Shown: positions 7,389-26,575 of the stretch, one piece after another | Layout of the letters: each line of letters begins with the position of its first letter | Position numbering within the stretch: position 1 is the stretch's first letter | From: a virus | Length of the DNA: 32,355 nt | Reading direction: 5' to 3' (one strand) | IMG/VR virus record: IMGVR_UViG_3300012931_000056 | Location: 1 to 32,355 of that record | Notes under the pieces: generated by a model | Databases searched by the model: none | Seen by the model: the letters and a program-made list of their open reading frames with translations, nothing else | What the model was told of the DNA's origin: nothing | Program-made: the position numbers and the translations under genes

Positions 7389-7851
7389 TGTTTTTTATTG
7401 AATAAATTAATTTTCGCCTATAACCGTGATTTACTACGATACATAATGCCCATAATAAAGTAATTACGTTCCACCCTGCGTCGCAAACGTAATTATTAAC
7501 AGTACTAAAGTGATAAATATCATGTAAAAAATACATGAATAATGTACCACTCATAGTTGATATATTGATAATATTTAAATTTATAATAGTTATTCGATTT
7601 AAGAGCAAATCTAAAACTAATTTTAATCCATTCAAAATAAAACCATATTCACCACTATCTTTTATACTACTTAATAATATCCATACCATGGAAATAGTGA
7701 GTCCAATTGTTGCCATATAATCGGTTAAAATCCTTGAAATTTCCTGAATATTGTTATTACAATAATAATAAAGAAAAGACCCGATAATAAAAAAAATAAA
7801 TAAAAATAATATTGGTAATAAAATTGTGATAGTTATTATCTTTATTTTCAT
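7378..7851 (-). CDS. Multi-spanning membrane protein (157 aa)
   Basis: Four hydrophobic segments are seen at about 7-29, 45-62, 88-112 and 126-142, with a basic C-terminal tail (HGYRRKLIY). No family is recognised. It overlaps the phosphatase gene by 4 bp (ATGA) upstream and the coiled-coil membrane gene by 11 bp downstream, forming a tight three-gene set. Candidate roles are a second holin or antiholin, or a membrane component working with the phosphatase; the sequence does not distinguish these. Confidence 0.65.
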   Translation of the reverse strand: MKIKIITITILLPILFLFIFFIIGSFLYYYCNNNIQEISRILTDYMATIGLTISMVWILLSSIKDSGEYGFILNGLKLVLDLLLNRITIINLNIINISTMSGTLFMYFLHDIYHFSTVNNYVCDAGWNVITLLWALCIVVNHGYRRKLIYSIKNNER

Positions 7852-8480
7852 ATTCTACTTGTTATTAAATAATAAGGATCTGGTATTTTGATCTCGCATA
7901 GTGAGGTATCGCTATTTCCTTCGATTTCAGAATCAAAATCACTAGGTTGATCTCCTATATTAGCAATTATAGTATAACCATTAGCAATAATGTCTTTTCG
8001 GCAAGAGTATTTATATTGTTGTATTGTTCCATCATCATCGTCAGGTCTAAAATAATAAGTTAAATTATCAGGATAACCTGCATTTGACATTTCTTTCAGT
8101 GCAAACTGTTCAATATTTGCACGTTTGCTTGTTATTATAAAAACTGTTAATCCATTAGTTAAACAATAATTTAAAAAATCTTGTACCGGAGTAATTGCTG
8201 GAAATGATGTTATATATTGCGCGGCTTCAATTATATTAGCAGTCCACGCAAAATCATTTCTCAACATATAGTTATATTCAGAAATACATGTTTCATCAAT
8301 ATCAAATACAACGCAATTTAGACTATTATTTAAATATGACTGAATAAATTCTTGCGCATCATCTATTACATTTTGAATTTGTTTCATATATAAACCAGAT
8401 GAATGATATTCTTTTAAAATGTCTTTTAAAATATCTAAATTTTCAGGCTCATTTACTTTTATGATTTTTTTTCTAAGCAT
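7848..8480 (-). CDS. HAD-superfamily acid-phosphatase-like protein without signal peptide
   Basis: A 210-residue protein with all HAD landmarks. Motif I is DIDET (60-64; nucleophile D60 and D62), motif II Thr/Ser at 117-118 (IITSKR), motif III lysine around K157 or K162, and motif IV GDQPSDF (176-182). The cap and spacing match the class B/IIIB acid phosphatase and lipoprotein e(P4) 5'-nucleotidase group. Those proteins are normally exported or lipidated. This one begins MLRKKIIKVNEP, has no signal peptide, and cannot be extended upstream without running into the outer-membrane spanin gene. It probably dephosphorylates a small phosphate ester such as a nucleotide in the cytoplasm. Position between spanins and membrane genes is unusual. 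Confidence 0.8.
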   Translation of the reverse strand: MLRKKIIKVNEPENLDILKDILKEYHSSGLYMKQIQNVIDDAQEFIQSYLNNSLNCVVFDIDETCISEYNYMLRNDFAWTANIIEAAQYITSFPAITPVQDFLNYCLTNGLTVFIITSKRANIEQFALKEMSNAGYPDNLTYYFRPDDDDGTIQQYKYSCRKDIIANGYTIIANIGDQPSDFDSEIEGNSDTSLCEIKIPDPYYLITSRI

Positions 8481-9561: not shown

Positions 9562-9752
9562 ATTTTCTCCATTAGAAACATTGCTTTTGCTTCGTCAAAT
9601 GATACTTTATAACCATATTGATAGCATTCAATCATAAACTTACAATCTGTTTCACACTGTTTTGCATCTATTTCAGAATTAAATACATAATTACAATATT
9701 TACATGAATATGTTATAATATTGTCTTTGATGTCTTTTAATTTATTAGGCAT
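9558..9752 (-). CDS. Small putative zinc-ribbon protein (64 aa)
   Basis: A 64-residue protein with CKYC (about 17-20) followed by an aromatic strand and CETDC (about 33-37), a Cys4 arrangement likely to bind one zinc. The rest is helical (SFDEAKAMFLMEKI). It overlaps both neighbours (endolysin by 4 bp, nuclease by 8 bp). Such small zinc proteins are frequent in phage late operons; function is unknown. DNA or protein binding are equally possible. Confidence 0.65.
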   Translation of the reverse strand: MPNKLKDIKDNIITYSCKYCNYVFNSEIDAKQCETDCKFMIECYQYGYKVSFDEAKAMFLMEKI

Positions 9753-10116
9753 TATCTTTTAATTCTATTAAAATAATTTCTAAAAATTTCTTGTAACTTC
9801 TGCATTCATAAACTTCGTGACCTAATCCGGTAAGTTTTACAATATTCAATTTCTGTTCTGGACTAAATCTTCCAGTTTTAGATTTATTTTCAATGTATAC
9901 TGTTCTTCCTTTAGGTAACGCAATAACAAAATCAAGAAACCCTTTTTTATTAATTCCTCTACTTCGATCATGGAAATAATAAAAACCATGGTCTTCACAA
10001 TATTTAATTATTTTTCTATCAAGCTCGCATTCTAATCCATCATCCGGTTTATTATCAGATACAAGTTTATTATTACGAGCTTGATATTCAAGCAATCTTT
10101 CTTTAGACCAGCGCAT
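9745..10116 (-). CDS. VRR-NUC domain nuclease
   Basis: A 123-residue single-domain protein. E29 lies in an N-terminal helix, HDRSRGINKKGFLD (49-62) leads to the metal-binding D62, and IENKSK (75-80) gives the E76-x-K78 pair, followed by SPEQ (85-88). This is the VRR-NUC subgroup of PD-(D/E)xK nucleases, some of which cut branched DNA. In phages such stand-alone domains may resolve recombination or packaging intermediates. It starts in an ATGA-type junction with the giant fibre gene, an odd place for a DNA-processing enzyme. Fold assignment is firm; substrate is unknown. Confidence 0.87.
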   Translation of the reverse strand: MRWSKERLLEYQARNNKLVSDNKPDDGLECELDRKIIKYCEDHGFYYFHDRSRGINKKGFLDFVIALPKGRTVYIENKSKTGRFSPEQKLNIVKLTGLGHEVYECRSYKKFLEIILIELKDNA

Positions 10117-13100
10117 TATGACATAGTCGGTGTTTCAATATGCCCCCAGGTTTGAGTACCACTTAATTCATATGATATCGTAATTGGTGAACTCGCAGTA
10201 CTATACCCAAATACGATTATACCCAATTTATAAGCGGCATCTCCTACACTGAGATGTGCTAATGAAAAATTTACCGTTATTGGTTTTGGTATAATGCTAG
10301 TAATGTTTCCGGTGCTTAATTGCGTTATTTTTTGATATTTTTTAATAGCAACAGATGTTTCATTTACATAACCAGTCGGGACTGTTATTGTTACTTCAGA
10401 TGAAGATGTATAACTACTAACTGGATAAAACCCTGAAGGTGTTTGAACCCAGGAGGTTGCGGAAAGATCGGAATTATAATCATTATTATTAAAAAATGAA
10501 ACCGAACCGCCCGACACGGTTAATGTTCTTGTTGTGCCTGTTCCTGTTGTAGTCGCTAACCAAGAGCCACCCTCTCTTACACGCATTACATTGAATAGTA
10601 ATGCAGAAGTAGCAGTACCACTAACTGAATTAACGCTTGCAAATACTTTCAACGCCCATATCCCCGCCGCTATATCTGTAACTCCTAACGCAGTATCGTA
10701 TAAAAATGCACATGAAAATATAGGTGCCGAACTATAAGATATAACATTTTTAGAAGCTGATGTGACACTAGTATTTGGTAACGTTGTTAATGTACATAAT
10801 TGATTATCATTTATAGAACCCACACCTAATATTTGCGTGTTATCAATGCAAAATTGTCTGCTGCCGGCAAAAGATAATGCTAAGGCAGTTCCTGCGCTAA
10901 TAGCATCATCGTTTGAAAATCTTATCATACCATTGGTGGTCATTTCTTTTGAAATATAACTATCATCGGCAGTATTAACTGTAACAAGACATCCTGCTCC
11001 ACCCGCTTGTACTACACCCATTATTTTACCAGCAGTAATATAAGTTTGAGTTCCAGCTCGAGCATTTATTACATATGTACTTATAGAACCGCTAGACATT
11101 TCCCCTGCATCTATTGATAAATAACCGCCACTTGTCCAGTTTTGGAATAACGCCTGCGTTCCCGTATTATTATAAGCACGGTTACATTTAACGCTAGCAT
11201 GACCCGTATGTTCAAAAATAAATCCACCATCACTCGCGCCAGTATCAAATTGCATTGTGTTAAATACAAAATTATGCACTTCTGCAACAACTGAATATCC
11301 TTGACAAATAATATTTGCCATAGGTGCATAAACATCTATATACCAGTAATAATTGAATGGTTGATAATATGTAGCTGTATCTAGTACTAACGCCATATTC
11401 GGAAGCCCATGTTCTTGCCAACGAATGTAATTAGCCGCAGAAATACTACATAAACAAGTATTAACAGTTAAACCGTCTCTTTTATTCCACGTTGAAGTAC
11501 CACCATCCCACGCTATTTGGCAAGAGCCTGTAAAGGTTTGTTTTGTATTTGTTTTTGTAGCATCATTATCTGTAACAGTTACACCATGCGCAATTGCATA
11601 ACAATCCCCATGAGTTGGAGTTGCTGGAAAATCAGCGGCGACCGCTATAAATCCTGTGCCTGTTCCCGTCATCCATGTTAACTCAGCTTTGTCAACGCCA
11701 AATTTATGTACGTACAAGAAATTTGCAGAAGTAGTCGCATCATAAGGATTATCATTTATAAATCTTACACTATTGGAACCATAAGTTTGATTTTTTATAA
11801 TATAATTTTTATCTTGAATATCTATTGATACTCGACCTGAACCAGTTGGCTGAATAGTGCCTGTAATGTGTTTAGCTGTGATATGCAGATCGCTAGTGCA
11901 AGTTATGATTGTATTACCATCACTTATGCCATACATATTATCAACAGTTAAATAAATCTTGGAAGTTATCCCATCCCAGCATTGCAACAAATACACGTTG
12001 TTTTCTGTGTAAAAATTAGTAAAATTAAAATGTACATCAGTTGCACCGGCTTCCGTAATTATACTGCCAGATACTACGTTTACATTTGCGGCATTCCATA
12101 TTAAGTCGGAATATACTACTACAATGTTACCGGTTAAAACAAAACTAGCTAAAGGCGCATCAATACTGGAATAAATATGTGGGTCTACACCACTTGCTGT
12201 AGCTATATAATAAGTGGAATTGTCTAATACTTTGATCGGAGGATATACTGTTGCAGATGACCCACTATGAACGTACGCTAAATATTGCGCTGCTCCATAA
12301 CTACATACAGCAGTTTGTGGAGTTAATCCATCGCGAGGCTCCCATTTTGATATTGTACTATTCCACGCTATTTGTAGAGGCCCTTTAAAATCTTGTCCTG
12401 TATTTGTTTTTCCAGAAATAGAGTCAGTAACAGCTACTCCATTAGCGATCATATAACAATCGCCATTCGAAGGTGTGCCTGAAGTTGGAAAATCGGTTGC
12501 AGAATAAATAAAACCTGTTGCAGCTCCGTAATAGCCAAGTGGATAATAAAGCTCCGCCTTATCTGTTCCAAACTTTTTAACAAAGTATGGAGGAAATAGT
12601 CCAACTTGTCCGAAAGTATCACTTAAATCTTTATAATCAGCACTAAAATTAACCTTTCCACCAAAAAGAGTCGAATTACTGCTATCAATATAATTTATTC
12701 CAGTTCTATCAATAGTATTAACATTAACAACGCCATTTGTGGCGGCTAAAATTCTACCAATCATTTTATTTACAGTTACATATATAGTGCCATACGCTGT
12801 TATAGATTGGAAAAGGTTTGAAGTTCCTATTATTTCTCCAGCGTTAATAATTAGTGTAGCTCCACTAGCATTATTTTGAAACATGCCATTTGTGATAGTT
12901 CCAGCATATGCCTTATTGACAAATATCGTAGATATACCTGTCTGACCAGATGCAATAGTTAATCCAGAGTCGCTAACTCCAGCTTGAAATTGAATATTAT
13001 TACAATTAAGAATGTAGCCTTTTAAATATGCAGTGCCATAAACAACTAAAGTAGCCGAAGGAGCCTGCAAATTAAGATTAAATTCGGATGCCTCCTCAAT

Positions 13101-15446
13101 GTAATAAGTTGAGTCATCCAACACATTTGCGGCATATGTATTATAATAACGCGCATATGCAATATATAAAGCAGCGCCGACAGTACATAAAGCAGTTTGT
13201 TGGCTATAGCCATCTCTTGACACCCACTTGCTTGTACTAGTATTCCAAGCAATTTGTAAAGGTCCGGTAAAAGTTTGTCCCGTATTTGTATGACCAGAGA
13301 CATTATCTGTTACAGTCCAACCACTTGCTACCATGTAGCAATCGCCATTCGAAGGTGTGGACGTAGGAAAATCGGTATTACTTAAGATAAAACCAGTGGT
13401 TGCGCCGCTTCTACCTTCAACATAATGCAATTCTGCAATGTCGGTTCCAAATCTTTCAACGAATAAAACTGGAGCAATACCATTAAATGGTAGCGAAAGA
13501 TCGCTAATTGTTGGAACATCCCACACGGGTGCTGAGCCAACTGTACCATTTCCAGTCATAGCTAAGAATTTCTTAGTCGTAGTTGTGTTTGCCCCAACCC
13601 TAGACAATAACGCAGAAGCATTACGGTAATACATATCATAGGCAGCATCAGAACCTACCGCCATAACTGTACCACTTCCAATGATATCAGAATTTACCGG
13701 AATATAACCAGTACCAGAAACAGCACTTGAAACTGAATTTTTACTATAAATAGTCACGGCAGTACCACAGGCTATTGGTGCAGCGGAAGCCGTAGCAACA
13801 AAATTATTTGCAACGATATTAATTCTAGTTGTTCCATTTGCTCCGTTGTTACAAGATATGCCACCACCTGTACCTAAATTAGTAATTAGGCAATTGACAA
13901 CAATACAGGTCCCCCCTGTGGTAGAGGTAATTAAATAATTAGAATTACTTGTATTCCAGTTGCAATCTTCTGCAATAATTATCCCAGAGCCGGTTACTCT
14001 ACTTGTAAGAGTACAAGCAAGTAATAATAGTTGACACGGAGAGTTAACGGTTATGACACTATTTAGTAACGAAATGCTCTTAAAATCCGCTAAATTACCA
14101 TTTAAAGCAATATTTCCATTTAATGAACCGCCTTGAAATAAAATTTTACCTGTAGTTCCAGTTGAGGAAAAAACAACATTCCCGATGGTATTTAAATCGT
14201 ATCGTGCATAATTGCCATTAGGAAACGAAATGCCATCAGTAAATGTAATGGTTGCGCCGTTACCATAAATGACTGTAGGAACGTCAAACATTGTAATCGC
14301 ATGAGATTCCGTAAATACTCCGGGGGCTATGTGAATTGCCAAGCCGTCCGCAGGTTCGTTCATTTGAACAGTTAAATTATATAAGGATTTATACGGCTTG
14401 CCTATAGAGCCGTCCTCTAAATAAATATCGACACGATTTCCATCGACCCACACTTCTTGTGTATACTGAAATGTAACATTGTTAATATTTGTAGTTCTAA
14501 TAACTTGATCCACTTCAGACGCATCATTAATAAAATTTAAAGTACAATTACTTAACGAATCAGCATCAGCATATAGGTAGCAATTTGTCCCGCTTAACGT
14601 AATCGTCCCTGTTACATTCGAACTAGTTAAATATACATTGCTAATTATAGAAGACGAAGTACCACTAATAACCATTCCTTTGACAGTTGAATTTTTTATA
14701 TTAGCAGTAGTTGTTGATACTGTAGCCGCAATTGCTAATCCATTTTCAAAAATACAATTATCTGTATTTAACGTTCCGGTATCAAAAGTCATTGACCCTG
14801 TATTCGCACAATGAACATCATATAAATTCAAGGTATCTAAACTATCACCATAGGCATAAGTTCTTCCTTTGAATTTACAATCTCCAACAGAATAATAATT
14901 TTTTAAATTTATTATCGCACCCACGGTGGATCCGCCTAGCGCATATAAATCAAAGTTAAACCCATGAGCTCCTATCGTTCTAATATTTTCTAAGCCTATC
15001 TCTGTGTTACTACTTGCGAATGAACTCGCTAAAGTTAAATATGTAGAGTTGTTTATTAGCGTACTTTCAAACATATCACCCTGCAAATACAGATATGGTA
15101 AAAGCACAGGAGATTCATTTAAGCCCACTGGCGCTAAGTGTGCTAAATATCTAGCAGAACTTGCAGGTACGATGCTATGTGTTGCCATATATGAAACAAC
15201 ACCAGCATATGTCTTAAACGGCTTAGCCATATTGCCTACTGTTCCAGTTGTGTCATTACCTAATGTATCATCTATCCATGATTTATTTGTTTCTAAAGAC
15301 TCTGATGCAACGCTTGTAGCTAAATTCTCCAAAGCGTCATCCAAAGTACTTCCTGTTACCGTGCTAGTATTGTTTACAGCACTTGAATCTATTAATTCGT
15401 AAGCACCATCTGGATAAAATTTGCCCGTTATTTTTATGCCGCTCAT
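10116..15446 (-). CDS. Giant modular beta-helix tail fibre or tailspike (1776 aa)
   Basis: The largest protein of the window. After an N-terminal attachment region (begins MSGIKITGKFYPDG) come two parallel-beta-helix modules of pectate-lyase type, each introduced by a GxxxKPFKT-like segment (about 70-80 and about 346-353). A linker typical of tail fibres follows (about 600-660). Three tandem modules of about 290 residues then begin at V663, V956 and V1246. Each starts with (K/R)FG-x-D-x-AEL and contains NGDCYM/THGDCYA, TFTGPLQIAW-like and RDG segments, followed by an LDxxTYY strand and a beta-helix. A C-terminal part (about 1510-1776) is Ser/Thr-rich. It likely binds or degrades a host surface glycan. 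No DGR or invertase accompanies it. Confidence 0.88.
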   Translation of the reverse strand: MSGIKITGKFYPDGAYELIDSSAVNNTSTVTGSTLDDALENLATSVASESLETNKSWIDDTLGNDTTGTVGNMAKPFKTYAGVVSYMATHSIVPASSARYLAHLAPVGLNESPVLLPYLYLQGDMFESTLINNSTYLTLASSFASSNTEIGLENIRTIGAHGFNFDLYALGGSTVGAIINLKNYYSVGDCKFKGRTYAYGDSLDTLNLYDVHCANTGSMTFDTGTLNTDNCIFENGLAIAATVSTTTANIKNSTVKGMVISGTSSSIISNVYLTSSNVTGTITLSGTNCYLYADADSLSNCTLNFINDASEVDQVIRTTNINNVTFQYTQEVWVDGNRVDIYLEDGSIGKPYKSLYNLTVQMNEPADGLAIHIAPGVFTESHAITMFDVPTVIYGNGATITFTDGISFPNGNYARYDLNTIGNVVFSSTGTTGKILFQGGSLNGNIALNGNLADFKSISLLNSVITVNSPCQLLLLACTLTSRVTGSGIIIAEDCNWNTSNSNYLITSTTGGTCIVVNCLITNLGTGGGISCNNGANGTTRINIVANNFVATASAAPIACGTAVTIYSKNSVSSAVSGTGYIPVNSDIIGSGTVMAVGSDAAYDMYYRNASALLSRVGANTTTTKKFLAMTGNGTVGSAPVWDVPTISDLSLPFNGIAPVLFVERFGTDIAELHYVEGRSGATTGFILSNTDFPTSTPSNGDCYMVASGWTVTDNVSGHTNTGQTFTGPLQIAWNTSTSKWVSRDGYSQQTALCTVGAALYIAYARYYNTYAANVLDDSTYYIEEASEFNLNLQAPSATLVVYGTAYLKGYILNCNNIQFQAGVSDSGLTIASGQTGISTIFVNKAYAGTITNGMFQNNASGATLIINAGEIIGTSNLFQSITAYGTIYVTVNKMIGRILAATNGVVNVNTIDRTGINYIDSSNSTLFGGKVNFSADYKDLSDTFGQVGLFPPYFVKKFGTDKAELYYPLGYYGAATGFIYSATDFPTSGTPSNGDCYMIANGVAVTDSISGKTNTGQDFKGPLQIAWNSTISKWEPRDGLTPQTAVCSYGAAQYLAYVHSGSSATVYPPIKVLDNSTYYIATASGVDPHIYSSIDAPLASFVLTGNIVVVYSDLIWNAANVNVVSGSIITEAGATDVHFNFTNFYTENNVYLLQCWDGITSKIYLTVDNMYGISDGNTIITCTSDLHITAKHITGTIQPTGSGRVSIDIQDKNYIIKNQTYGSNSVRFINDNPYDATTSANFLYVHKFGVDKAELTWMTGTGTGFIAVAADFPATPTHGDCYAIAHGVTVTDNDATKTNTKQTFTGSCQIAWDGGTSTWNKRDGLTVNTCLCSISAANYIRWQEHGLPNMALVLDTATYYQPFNYYWYIDVYAPMANIICQGYSVVAEVHNFVFNTMQFDTGASDGGFIFEHTGHASVKCNRAYNNTGTQALFQNWTSGGYLSIDAGEMSSGSISTYVINARAGTQTYITAGKIMGVVQAGGAGCLVTVNTADDSYISKEMTTNGMIRFSNDDAISAGTALALSFAGSRQFCIDNTQILGVGSINDNQLCTLTTLPNTSVTSASKNVISYSSAPIFSCAFLYDTALGVTDIAAGIWALKVFASVNSVSGTATSALLFNVMRVREGGSWLATTTGTGTTRTLTVSGGSVSFFNNNDYNSDLSATSWVQTPSGFYPVSSYTSSSEVTITVPTGYVNETSVAIKKYQKITQLSTGNITSIIPKPITVNFSLAHLSVGDAAYKLGIIVFGYSTASSPITISYELSGTQTWGHIETPTMS
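11711..13460 (-). repeat. Coding tandem repeat of about 870-880 bp in the fibre gene
   Basis: Module starts are at 13460, 12581 and 11711 (minus strand), giving units of 879 and 870 bp; the third unit runs on to about 10920, beyond the listed span of starts. Copies 1 and 2 are closest: a 21-nt block is identical at 12457-12477 and 13339-13359, and surrounding blocks are near-identical. Copy 3 has diverged. This fits stepwise duplication followed by divergence. Confidence 0.8.
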
Positions 15447-16481: not shown

Positions 16482-16778
16482 CTATTGATAAATATCTGCA
16501 TTAACATTTGACGCTCCAGTAGAGCCTGTCAATGTTGCTCTAATTTGCATTCCTTGACCAAGACGGTTAACTAATCTAATTGTATTAGAAGTAAATATTG
16601 CAGGATTACCCCCGTACGTTAATGTTATCCAAGTATTACCGCCATCTGGGGAGCCTTGTATCGTCACAGATCCTCCACCAAAGTTATCAGCCCAAATTGA
16701 TAAAGTTTTTGAGCCTCCATCTGCATCTATTCCTGGACCATCTGTATCAACTGAAACATTGTCTAATAGTTTAGTCAT
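16482..16778 (-). CDS. Small beta-sandwich tail protein (98 aa)
   Basis: A 98-residue, Gly/Thr/Asn-rich, cysteine-free protein. The central VTIQGSPDGGNTWITL (about 38-53) is like an Asp-box/BNR-type hairpin found in carbohydrate-binding and virion proteins. It is the first gene after the attenuator-like terminator and starts the terminal fibre group. An AAAGGTATT ribosome-binding site precedes it. Likely a virion component; exact role unknown. Confidence 0.68.
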   Translation of the reverse strand: MTKLLDNVSVDTDGPGIDADGGSKTLSIWADNFGGGSVTIQGSPDGGNTWITLTYGGNPAIFTSNTIRLVNRLGQGMQIRATLTGSTGASNVNADIYQ

Positions 16779-23444: not shown

Positions 23445-24647
23445 TTAACTCGTTAGAATTTTAATATTACCAGATATTAAACTAGCATTTGTTATAGAAT
23501 TTAGACTTATAATATCTGAAGCATTATCTAAACTTCCATAATATTGATAAGTTAAGACATTAACAGGTATATTTTTAGCATTTATACTGGTTATTTTATT
23601 AATCGTCAAAGATTCATTGTCGAAAAAAGATTTTACATTTACTCTTAATTCTTGAATAGCATTTACCAGATCAGTTGACATATAAATATTTGTAGGATCA
23701 GAAAATAAATAACTATATGCAGTTTCTGTCTTTGTATTTATATTAGTTAATTCGTTTTCATTAGTTATAGTCAATTGAGTCGCTGAAAAATACATATTTG
23801 CTAAAAATAAAACATTTAAACAACCATTTATTAAAATTCTATCATTTTCTCTTTCAATTAATGATTCAGTTGTTTGTGGCACAGGAATATCATTCTCGCC
23901 AATTCCAAACATGTTATAATTCATATTAAATCTATCTTGTTCGCTATCTGAAATAGCATCAAATGTTTGTACTAAATTTACTGTATAATCAGCAAAATCG
24001 GTTGGCGATGAAACAATAGAATAAATATTTGCACTATAATCGGAAGAAGCTTTTGTAAAATTGTTTAAATCTACTTGATTCGGAGAACTAGTATTTTTAC
24101 TATAAGCATTAAATTGATTAGTAATATTAGTCATTTTTTGCGAAATATAATTAATATTATTATAATATTCTATAATATAATTAACTCCTAAATCGGAAAT
24201 TACAGTATCATAAACAGTATTAAATGTAGTTATAATATTTGTAAAATTATTTGTAGCCGGCGTTGGATAAACATTTGGTTGATTCTCTCTAAAAGTTATT
24301 TCATATACCGCACTACCAATATTTGTTGGTTCTTCAGTTACCGTCCAGTCGCCCATTACTACACAATTAACAACACCATAAAAAGGATGTATTAATATTC
24401 CAACAGAAGAATCGAGCAATGCACTTTCAAATTGCTGTCGATTTATTTCATAAGTTAATGTTCCACTGATTACTGCTGTTATTTTAAATTCTCTTAATTT
24501 CTTTCCTAAATCTTCAACAAAATCAAAATCCTTTCCTGGATATTCATGTAATACTTTTTTTCTTCCATGAGTTTTAGAGCCGGTTGCATAGAAGAATGAA
24601 ATTCCTTTATAAGAAGCTGGATATAATCTATCGAATAAAGTTAACAT
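23445..24647 (-). CDS. DNA-circularisation-type tail protein, Mu gp43 family
   Basis: A 400-residue protein whose first 90 residues (LFDRLYPASYKGISFFY, HGRKKVLHEYPGKD, LREFKITAVISG) match the DNA circularisation protein N-terminal family (Mu gp43 / Sf6-type nomenclature). Despite the family name, in contractile tails it is a baseplate or tube-cap component. The remaining part is helical and Asn-rich. It shares one base with the tape-measure stop and lies before the hub gene, the expected Mu order. Confidence 0.87.
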   Translation of the reverse strand: MLTLFDRLYPASYKGISFFYATGSKTHGRKKVLHEYPGKDFDFVEDLGKKLREFKITAVISGTLTYEINRQQFESALLDSSVGILIHPFYGVVNCVVMGDWTVTEEPTNIGSAVYEITFRENQPNVYPTPATNNFTNIITTFNTVYDTVISDLGVNYIIEYYNNINYISQKMTNITNQFNAYSKNTSSPNQVDLNNFTKASSDYSANIYSIVSSPTDFADYTVNLVQTFDAISDSEQDRFNMNYNMFGIGENDIPVPQTTESLIERENDRILINGCLNVLFLANMYFSATQLTITNENELTNINTKTETAYSYLFSDPTNIYMSTDLVNAIQELRVNVKSFFDNESLTINKITSINAKNIPVNVLTYQYYGSLDNASDIISLNSITNASLISGNIKILTS

Positions 24648-26350
24648 TAAAATGCACCTACTTGAGGCATATTATTACCTCTTTGAACAGATGAAGTAAG
24701 CGCATTATTTGGAGATTTCGTATGCACTGATCCAACTACATTATTTTTATCATTAACGTTTATATCAACTGCTATTTGCTGTGGTTTTGAAAAATGCTGA
24801 GCTAACATCATTATTAATGAGCCTATTGGGTTAACTGGCGCAGTGGCGATAGACATTCCTGTCATTGGTGTCATTGGATTAAATGATGTAGTTGATACGG
24901 ATTTTCCTTTGACGATTGCCGTTGTTGTGGCAGTAATCCCTAATGCGTTTGTAAGCGTAGCCATTTTTGCAATCAATCTATCAACAAAGTCATGAAATAC
25001 TTTACAATGTTTATATAGTTCATAAAATCCTAAACTTAAAGCTAAAACTCCAGTAACGGCTAATCCAATTGGACTTACTATTCCTGCTATTGTAAAACCA
25101 AATAATTTAAGTATGCCGACTATTACTTTTAATTTTTCTAAAAGAACAAATCCCATGTAAAAATGACCTAAGGCTATTAATGTCGGTCCTATAACCATAG
25201 CTATTAATGCAATCCATTTTATAAAAGAAAATAAAACAGGGCTACCTTCGGATATTTCATTTATTAAACCTATAATCCAATTCATAACTATATTCAATTT
25301 ATTGATCATATCTGGTTTAATGATCGCTAATTCTAAATTTTGATAAGCCTGATGTAATCTTTTAAGTTGATTGTTTAAGTCTCCATATTGTAATTCAACT
25401 AATTGCTGCGATATTTCACCTGATTTCTCTAATTCCTTATTAAAATTTTTCAATCCATCGGTATCGTTCATCATTCGAGTTAAAAACACTGTACTGCGTC
25501 CAAATGTTTTATACATTTCTCCTTGAGACATGTGTTTTTTATTAACTACATCAATGATATCGGATAAACTTTTTAATTTACCCGTATGAATACCTTGCTT
25601 TTCAAGAGCAAGAGATAATGTCTTGATCATTATATTCATACTACTTGCTGCGCCTTCAGCGGAACCTTGTATTCTTACGTAATATGCAAGATCGCTAGTG
25701 TATTCCTCCATGTTATAACCTGCTTTTTTCGCAACCGCAGCTCCTTCTTTCCACGCTTCATTAAAATCTTGTGCACTTGCTCCTGATTTTGAGGCGGCAG
25801 CTATTAATCTATTTGTTATATTTGGCAAATCATCGTAGCTTTTATTCCATAAATTCATCGCTGACATGGAAATATTTACCCCGTTAGTTAAATCAGTGCC
25901 GAGAGCAATATTTAATCTCGTGGCACTTGATAATATTTTATCCATTTGCTCAACTGTTTTAACTCCTCGCTGATACATAACAATTTCAGCTTTAGCTAAA
26001 TCGTCTTTAGTGCTTAGAGTTGTTTTACTTAATCTTTCATTTACATCTGCTAGATTATTCATTTGCTCTTCCGTAGCTCCTGTTATAATTTTTATCTTAT
26101 CCATAGAATTATAATATTCTGCTGCCGTATGAATTGCTACTCCTGTTACTGCGCCGCCTATTAATGAAAATTTTTTAGTTAAATCTGTGCCCATTCGAGA
26201 TAATTCACGACCAAATCTTGAAGTTGCATAGAATCCACGAGATAATTTAGTCATTTTTTCGGTCAATTCTTCGGCACTTCGTATTATTTTTTTTGTGACT
26301 GCCGTATATTGATCTATAATTTTAACAGTCCACGCTATATTAAAACTCAT
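24647..26350 (-). CDS. Tail tape-measure protein
   Basis: A 567-residue protein with a TP901-type core at about 75-310 (KIITGATEEQMNNLADVNE, then TTLSTKDDLAKAEIVMYQRG, then SGASAQDFNEAWKEGAAVAK), two hydrophobic regions at about 373-402 and 408-446 that could enter the host membrane during ejection, and a low-complexity tail. At roughly 1.5 Angstrom per residue the tail would be about 85 nm, short for a myovirus; this is an estimate. It directly follows the frameshifted chaperone pair. Confidence 0.9.
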   Translation of the reverse strand: MSFNIAWTVKIIDQYTAVTKKIIRSAEELTEKMTKLSRGFYATSRFGRELSRMGTDLTKKFSLIGGAVTGVAIHTAAEYYNSMDKIKIITGATEEQMNNLADVNERLSKTTLSTKDDLAKAEIVMYQRGVKTVEQMDKILSSATRLNIALGTDLTNGVNISMSAMNLWNKSYDDLPNITNRLIAAASKSGASAQDFNEAWKEGAAVAKKAGYNMEEYTSDLAYYVRIQGSAEGAASSMNIMIKTLSLALEKQGIHTGKLKSLSDIIDVVNKKHMSQGEMYKTFGRSTVFLTRMMNDTDGLKNFNKELEKSGEISQQLVELQYGDLNNQLKRLHQAYQNLELAIIKPDMINKLNIVMNWIIGLINEISEGSPVLFSFIKWIALIAMVIGPTLIALGHFYMGFVLLEKLKVIVGILKLFGFTIAGIVSPIGLAVTGVLALSLGFYELYKHCKVFHDFVDRLIAKMATLTNALGITATTTAIVKGKSVSTTSFNPMTPMTGMSIATAPVNPIGSLIMMLAQHFSKPQQIAVDINVNDKNNVVGSVHTKSPNNALTSSVQRGNNMPQVGAF

Positions 26351-26575
26351 TTATTTTCTCGAATTAACTTTAGACATTTCTTGTTTAATTTGTCGCTCTC
26401 TTTTATTTGCAAATTTATTGAGTTGGAACACTTTAGATAATGGAATTTGTTCCAACTCTAATATTGAAATAGCACCTTTATAATATATAGCTAGATTAGC
26501 GATTAATTCTTCAATTTCTTCTAATTCAAAATCACTAATCAATAGTTCAAAAAATTTGCGACATACTCTCCGCAA
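26351..26575 (-). CDS. -1 frame extension of the tail chaperone (gpT-like)
   Basis: The frame contains 74 codons but its only start is a TTG at 26575 within the upstream gene, with no ribosome-binding site. It lies in the -1 frame relative to the preceding gene and overlaps its end by 37 nt at a slippery site. It is therefore read as the C-terminal extension, giving a fusion of about 227 residues (161 from the first gene, then FELLISDF...). The extension is charged and helical (ELEEIEELIANLA) with a basic end. In lambda and Mu such extensions recruit the tape-measure protein to the chaperone. Confidence 0.83.
   Translation of the reverse strand: MRRVCRKFFELLISDFELEEIEELIANLAIYYKGAISILELEQIPLSKVFQLNKFANKRERQIKQEMSKVNSRK

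Follow-up and report, generated by a model that had tools for sequence, protein, structure and literature searches.

Does the short gene that directly precedes the tape measure gene of this divergent, contractile-tailed phage yield one tail assembly chaperone, or two? We examined it in the window, by which we mean the whole stretch analysed, a viral record of 32,355 bases with 31% GC. We conclude that the locus is very probably a tail assembly chaperone gene with a programmed -1 frameshift, giving a 164-residue protein and a 227-residue fusion. A pair of this kind, like lambda G/GT, was what the initial annotation had proposed, and it is still the best reading, strengthened by a set of relatives that bear the DNA_circ protein.

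Gene order and the place of the chaperone gene

The tail genes lie on the minus strand and follow the order found in annotated Mu-like phages: sheath, presumed tube, the 164-codon gene, tape measure, DNA_circ hub, gpP-like hub and then the baseplate genes (table 1). The 164-codon gene comes directly before the tape measure, where annotated Mu-like phages have their chaperone, and so lies between the tape measure and the presumed tube protein. The latter is placed by position only; it had no Pfam match, and its PHROG matches were no better than E 0.02.

What does the 164-residue protein itself reveal? It had no Pfam match at the cut-off and a best PHROG match of E 0.0048; by these scans, and by the chaperone profile of its relatives, no homology of the short form to described chaperones could be recognised. 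An AlphaFold model had a mean pLDDT of 42.5 and was set aside. Membership of the tail chaperones is not known to need sequence similarity, and the gene diverges fast, so we base the assignment on position and on architecture, namely a zero-frame heptamer near the end of the gene and an open -1 frame that reaches the tape measure.

The phage has no near neighbours among the sequences searched. No close relatives appeared in viral contigs scanned with the chaperone, the tape measure and the baseplate J protein, nor in genome contigs scanned with the sheath and the N-terminal 93 residues of the hub protein. All tape measure and sheath matches in phage records were below 60% identity (22-28% among the matches listed), and the chaperone gave three matches there, all at E 3 or worse.

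Elsewhere on the minus strand, a 210-residue HAD protein resembling class B acid phosphatases (7848-8480; PF03767, 3e-25) looks unusual as phage cargo. A presumed tail fibre of 1776 residues (10116-15446) had no Pfam match at E 0.001; by eye, its translation repeats a unit of about 100 residues three times (FGTDxAEL...NGDCYMxAxG...). Adjoining it is a gene for a protein with a VRR-NUC nuclease domain (9745-10116; PF08774, 9.2e-07).

Table 1. Features of the tail locus, in window coordinates.
Feature	Position	Strand	Remark
Sheath	29053-27476	-	phrog_165, 2.4e-53
Presumed tail tube protein, 134 aa	27059-27463	-	position only
Tail assembly chaperone (probable), zero-frame product, 164 aa	26539-27033	-	lambda gpG-like role suggested by position
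GGAGAG, candidate Shine-Dalgarno-like 5' stimulator	26566-26571	-	duplex -6.8 kcal/mol; putative role
Slippery decamer AAATTTTTTG	26548-26557	-	A_AAT_TTT (26557-26551) and T_TTT_TTG (26554-26548), zero frame
-1 frame extension, 65 codons and stop; putative T-like domain of fusion	26351-26548	-	adjoins tape-measure start
TTG overlapping the zero-frame stop (TTGA), possible reinitiation start	26540-26542	-	
Zero-frame stop TGA	26539-26541	-	third codon past the TTG of the heptamer
Tape measure protein, presumed chaperone partner	24647-26350	-	PhageMin_Tail 1.7e-16; phrog_1533 5.2e-35
DNA_circ hub	24647-23445	-	
gpP-like hub	23441-22257	-	

The slippery site and its reading frames

The zero-frame codons at the 3' end of the chaperone gene are GCA AAT TTT TTG AAC TAT TGA. 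As the initial annotation had claimed, two overlapping heptamers stand here in the zero frame before the stop. From 26581 the -1 frame runs without a stop until 26353-26351, and the ATG of the tape measure follows at once at 26350. The extension, earlier put at 66 residues, is present as an open frame; its post-slip part comprises 65 residues, or 66 when the first Phe is counted, and the fusion would have 227. The +1/-2 frame is closed at this site.

Chance expectation and coding signal

How much weight can the motif bear? When the codons of the 14-codon overlap were drawn from the late genes, T_TTT_TTN arose in 2.2% of cases, any heptamer in 10.9% and a double one in 1.1%. With the peptide RICGEYVANFLNY held fixed and its codons redrawn, T_TTT_TTN appeared in 65% of draws and the double arrangement in 59%. 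The gp48-like baseplate gene has a second decamer, AAATTTTTTA, in its zero frame (19536-19527, minus strand). Since the T run is expected given the peptide and a similar decamer stands in another gene, the slippery motif alone is suggestive, not decisive.

Could the motif then be an accident, the chaperone simply stopping at its TGA and the downstream frame being non-coding or unrelated? The AT-rich genome, the likelihood of a T run wherever Phe-Leu is encoded and the second decamer all favour such an accident, as does the codon score of one antisense frame of the extension stretch, which exceeds that of the extension itself (0.339 versus 0.216). Against it stand the length of the open frame, 66 codons having a probability of 0.006 under a dinucleotide model, and its exact abutment on the tape measure, together with the gene order and the rank of the frame in the profile search described below. 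Codon usage also argues for coding: the extension exceeds 1656 of 1656 off-frame windows of the late genes, although its value is low for a true frame, equalled or undercut in just 4 of 828 such windows. We regard a chance motif as scarcely credible.

Were the extension not a gene part, it would leave a gap of 188 nt, one of three longer than 30 nt among the 18 gaps between late genes; the other two flank a 98-aa gene at 16482-16778.

The decamer in the gp48-like baseplate gene is possibly a natural negative control for frameshifting.

A comparable architecture in phages bearing DNA_circ

Is a comparable arrangement found in other phages? Loci were collected by a conserved DNA_circ motif, which gave at least 120 IMG/VR stretches, a sample; the 121 loci examined were the 120 listed IMG/VR matches and an annotated phage locus with the motif (L006). 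A tape measure was recognisable in 75 of the 121, and 59 of those had at least 600 nt upstream of it. Among the matches listed, 48 of the 59 have a -1 extension of 15-90 residues with a zero-frame heptamer in the overlap, the site being a T6 heptamer in 40 and of another type in eight; in the remaining 11 of the 59 no -1 extension with a heptamer was found. A +1/-2 extension of the Mu type accompanies a CGGGGGCG site in loci L034, L069 and L110, and L089 and L090 carry other +1/-2 candidates. L033 has extension candidates, none with a heptamer, and no candidate of suitable length turned up in L041, L046, L068, L095 and L126. A +1/-2 candidate occurs in 15 of the 59 (among the matches listed); as 10 of these 15 carry a -1 candidate also, the frame assignment made by the script has some ambiguity.

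In L090, at 2247-2390 (0-based, on the strand as oriented by the script), GGGTTTTTTC is followed by an open +1/-2 extension; either an error in the sequence or a -2 shift at the T run could account for this.

Clustering of the listed matches at 70% identity left 31 genes, and with Acetobacter phage phiAP1 (L004) we arrive at 32 non-redundant relatives. Their heptamers were picked by the script and may differ from the real sites, above all in L085, L103 and L117. Among the matches listed, T_TTT_TTN is the site in 25 of the 32, and the other seven use AAAAAAC, GGGTTTT, GGGAAAC (twice), CCCAAAG, GGGAAAG and GGGTTTC. An adjacent second heptamer accompanies the site in nine of the 32 (GGGTTTT in six, CCCTTTT in two and AAATTTT in one, among the matches listed), and L092 has the double arrangement as AAATTTTTTC. 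Since nine relatives share it, the double slippery site appears, as far as the sequences go, to be nothing special in the chaperones of DNA_circ-bearing phages. The 32 extensions (among the matches listed) are 44-86 residues long and end near the start of the tape measure.

Ten records were also searched with the hub protein, and four of these, L128-L131, were examined upstream. TTTTTTG with a continuing -1 frame occurs in L128 and L130; L131 combines GGGAAAA with a -1 frame, and in L129 the site could not be made out.

L099, whose tape measure matches that of the window better than that of any other collected locus does, carries G_GGA_AAG with a -1 extension (2610-2616). The slippery sites at this point thus seem to differ between related phages.

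If the fusion arises at the T run, need the ribosome be responsible? RNA polymerase might instead add a U on the T6 run, so that some mRNAs encode the fusion directly. The homopolymer and the 31% GC of the record would suit such transcriptional slippage. A run of six is short, though, against the runs of nine given for bacterial slippage in an excerpt from PMC5009743, and seven of the 32 relatives (among the matches listed) have no T6 run at the site. Moreover, slippage of the polymerase needs no codon register, yet over the final 120 nt of these 31 genes, among the matches listed, 24 of 24 T6 runs keep the X_XXY_YYZ register; the remaining 2481 codons of the same genes contain one T6 run. The register is a consistency check, not an unbiased test, since the set was picked for having some heptamer. 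We consider transcriptional slippage highly improbable.

Might the -1 frame be translated separately? By termination and reinitiation, ribosomes would stop at the TGA and restart at the TTG at 26542, making a separate 63-residue protein; the overlap of this TTG with the stop makes this conceivable, and five of the 32 relatives (among the matches listed) likewise have a -1 frame start codon overlapping the zero-frame stop. TTG is, however, a weak start codon, and the 23 nt that separate it from the upstream GGAGAG exceed the spacing of ordinary initiation. In 15 of the 32 relatives (among the matches listed) the -1 frame has no ATG, GTG or TTG from the heptamer to 40 nt past the stop, and all 32 have the heptamer, though they were picked for having one. 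Separate translation by reinitiation therefore seems very unlikely. The initial annotation had held that the extension has no usable start of its own. This is borne out for the TTG at 26575, which has no Shine-Dalgarno-like stretch (best -0.2 kcal/mol), but is too strong for the TTG in TTGA.

Possible homology of the extension

The extensions of the 32 relatives were built into a profile and searched against the 803 stop-to-stop segments of the window. The -1 frame of the window ranks first, as a weak match (E 0.089, 8.2 bits), and the next segment has E 1.3; none of 2000 shuffles scored as high. Comparison by hhalign gave P 0.00046 with a probability of 33% over 39 columns in local mode, and P 0.0039 with a probability of 3.6% in global mode. 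In leave-one-out tests, 30 of the 32 members scored above 20 bits. At 8.7 bits, the window extension would therefore be an outlier of the family. The chaperone profile from the same 32 relatives did not match the 164-residue protein, and tblastn against the collected loci found nothing better than E 0.15 for that protein and no match for the extension.

The upstream stretch and RNA structure

What might promote slippage at this site? The hexamer GGAGAG ends 11 nt before T_TTT_TTG and 8 nt before A_AAT_TTT. Its duplex energy, like the others here, was calculated against a typical anti-Shine-Dalgarno sequence that may not be the host's; none of the 145 background in-frame sites of the chaperone gene reaches so low a value, which is near those of the phage's own starts (-6.9 for the tube, -6.6 for the chaperone). 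A stretch of -6.6 or below at a distance of 8-12 nt occurs at 95 of 6881 in-frame sites of the late genes (1.4%). An excerpt from PMC5009743 places the Shine-Dalgarno-like stimulators of -1 shifts at 9-14 nt. The relatives give a borderline result, seven of 25 lying in the top tenth of their own gene (Wilcoxon p 0.052, among the matches listed); similar 5' stretches are found in some relatives (L064, L071, L078, L082 and L088) and are absent from others. Downstream of the slippery site, no stable RNA structure was predicted (z +1.10 and +0.16). It is possible, if somewhat short of probable, that the frameshift is driven by GGAGAG at 11 nt without a 3' RNA structure, in which case the tail gene would carry half of a dnaX-like cassette.

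Proposed mechanism of the -1 frameshift

How, then, might the two products arise? Most ribosomes would read on to the TGA and make the 164-residue, gpG-like protein. A minority would slip back by one base, either at T_TTT_TTG or at A_AAT_TTT, which overlaps it, producing the fusion with its C-terminal domain of 65 residues. On T_TTT_TTG the P-site Phe-tRNA could re-pair with UUU, as at other U-run sites, while GGAGAG probably pairs with 16S rRNA and aids the backward slip. The junction peptide VANFFELL, named earlier as the one to look for, is one possible product: it would follow from a slip on A_AAT_TTT or from P-site slippage alone, whereas a tandem slip on T_TTT_TTG would give VANFLELL. 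Either route would yield 227 residues, as 162 + 65 or as 161 + 1 + 65. By analogy with lambda, the short form would coat the tape measure and the long form would also recruit tail-tube subunits.

Comparison with known systems

How does this locus compare with the systems already described? As in lambda G/GT, the gene stands before the tape measure, the -1 shift would fall near the end of the zero-frame gene and a C-terminal extension follows. Unlike lambda, the window phage has a tail sheath gene, and its site is T_TTT_TTG where that of lambda is G_GGA_AAG; the Pfam and PHROG scans of the window matched none of the lambda G/T families. The lambda shift, according to an excerpt from PMC5009743, occurs at a low level that gives gpG and gpGT in a molar ratio of 30:1, the gpG part binding the tape measure and the T part the tail subunit.

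The further likening of the locus to Mu 41/42 does not hold beyond the gene order, which from sheath to gpP-like hub is that of annotated Mu-like phages. PMC2628397, citing Xu et al. 2004, reports that tail chaperones shift by -1, or by -2 in Mu. In four Mu-like phages a +1/-2 extension stands at a CGGGGGCGA site. In the window the -1 frame is the open one. A Mu-type -2 shift at a G-run site is ruled out here because the +1/-2 frame is closed.

With E. coli dnaX the locus would share a Shine-Dalgarno-like stretch ahead of the slippery heptamer, at a spacing within the range excerpted above. It differs in having no predicted downstream stem-loop and in its U-rich site, against A_AAA_AAG in dnaX.

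The site resembles those of the DNA_circ-bearing phages, the IMG/VR contigs and phiAP1, with their prevalent T_TTT_TTN and, in the nine double cases, XXXTTTTTTZ (among the matches listed); the window differs from them in its divergent extension and in a chaperone that their profile does not match. Family scans name neither the chaperone part nor the extension in the window phage, and the analysis yields a candidate 5' stimulator and a comparative set of sites. The mechanism is already well known in tailed phages, the SEA-PHAGES genomes having 2397 annotated joined tail-chaperone genes according to an excerpt from PMC10885494. To these the window phage is a divergent but ordinary addition, one that appears to set the ratio of its two chaperones by ribosomal slippage.
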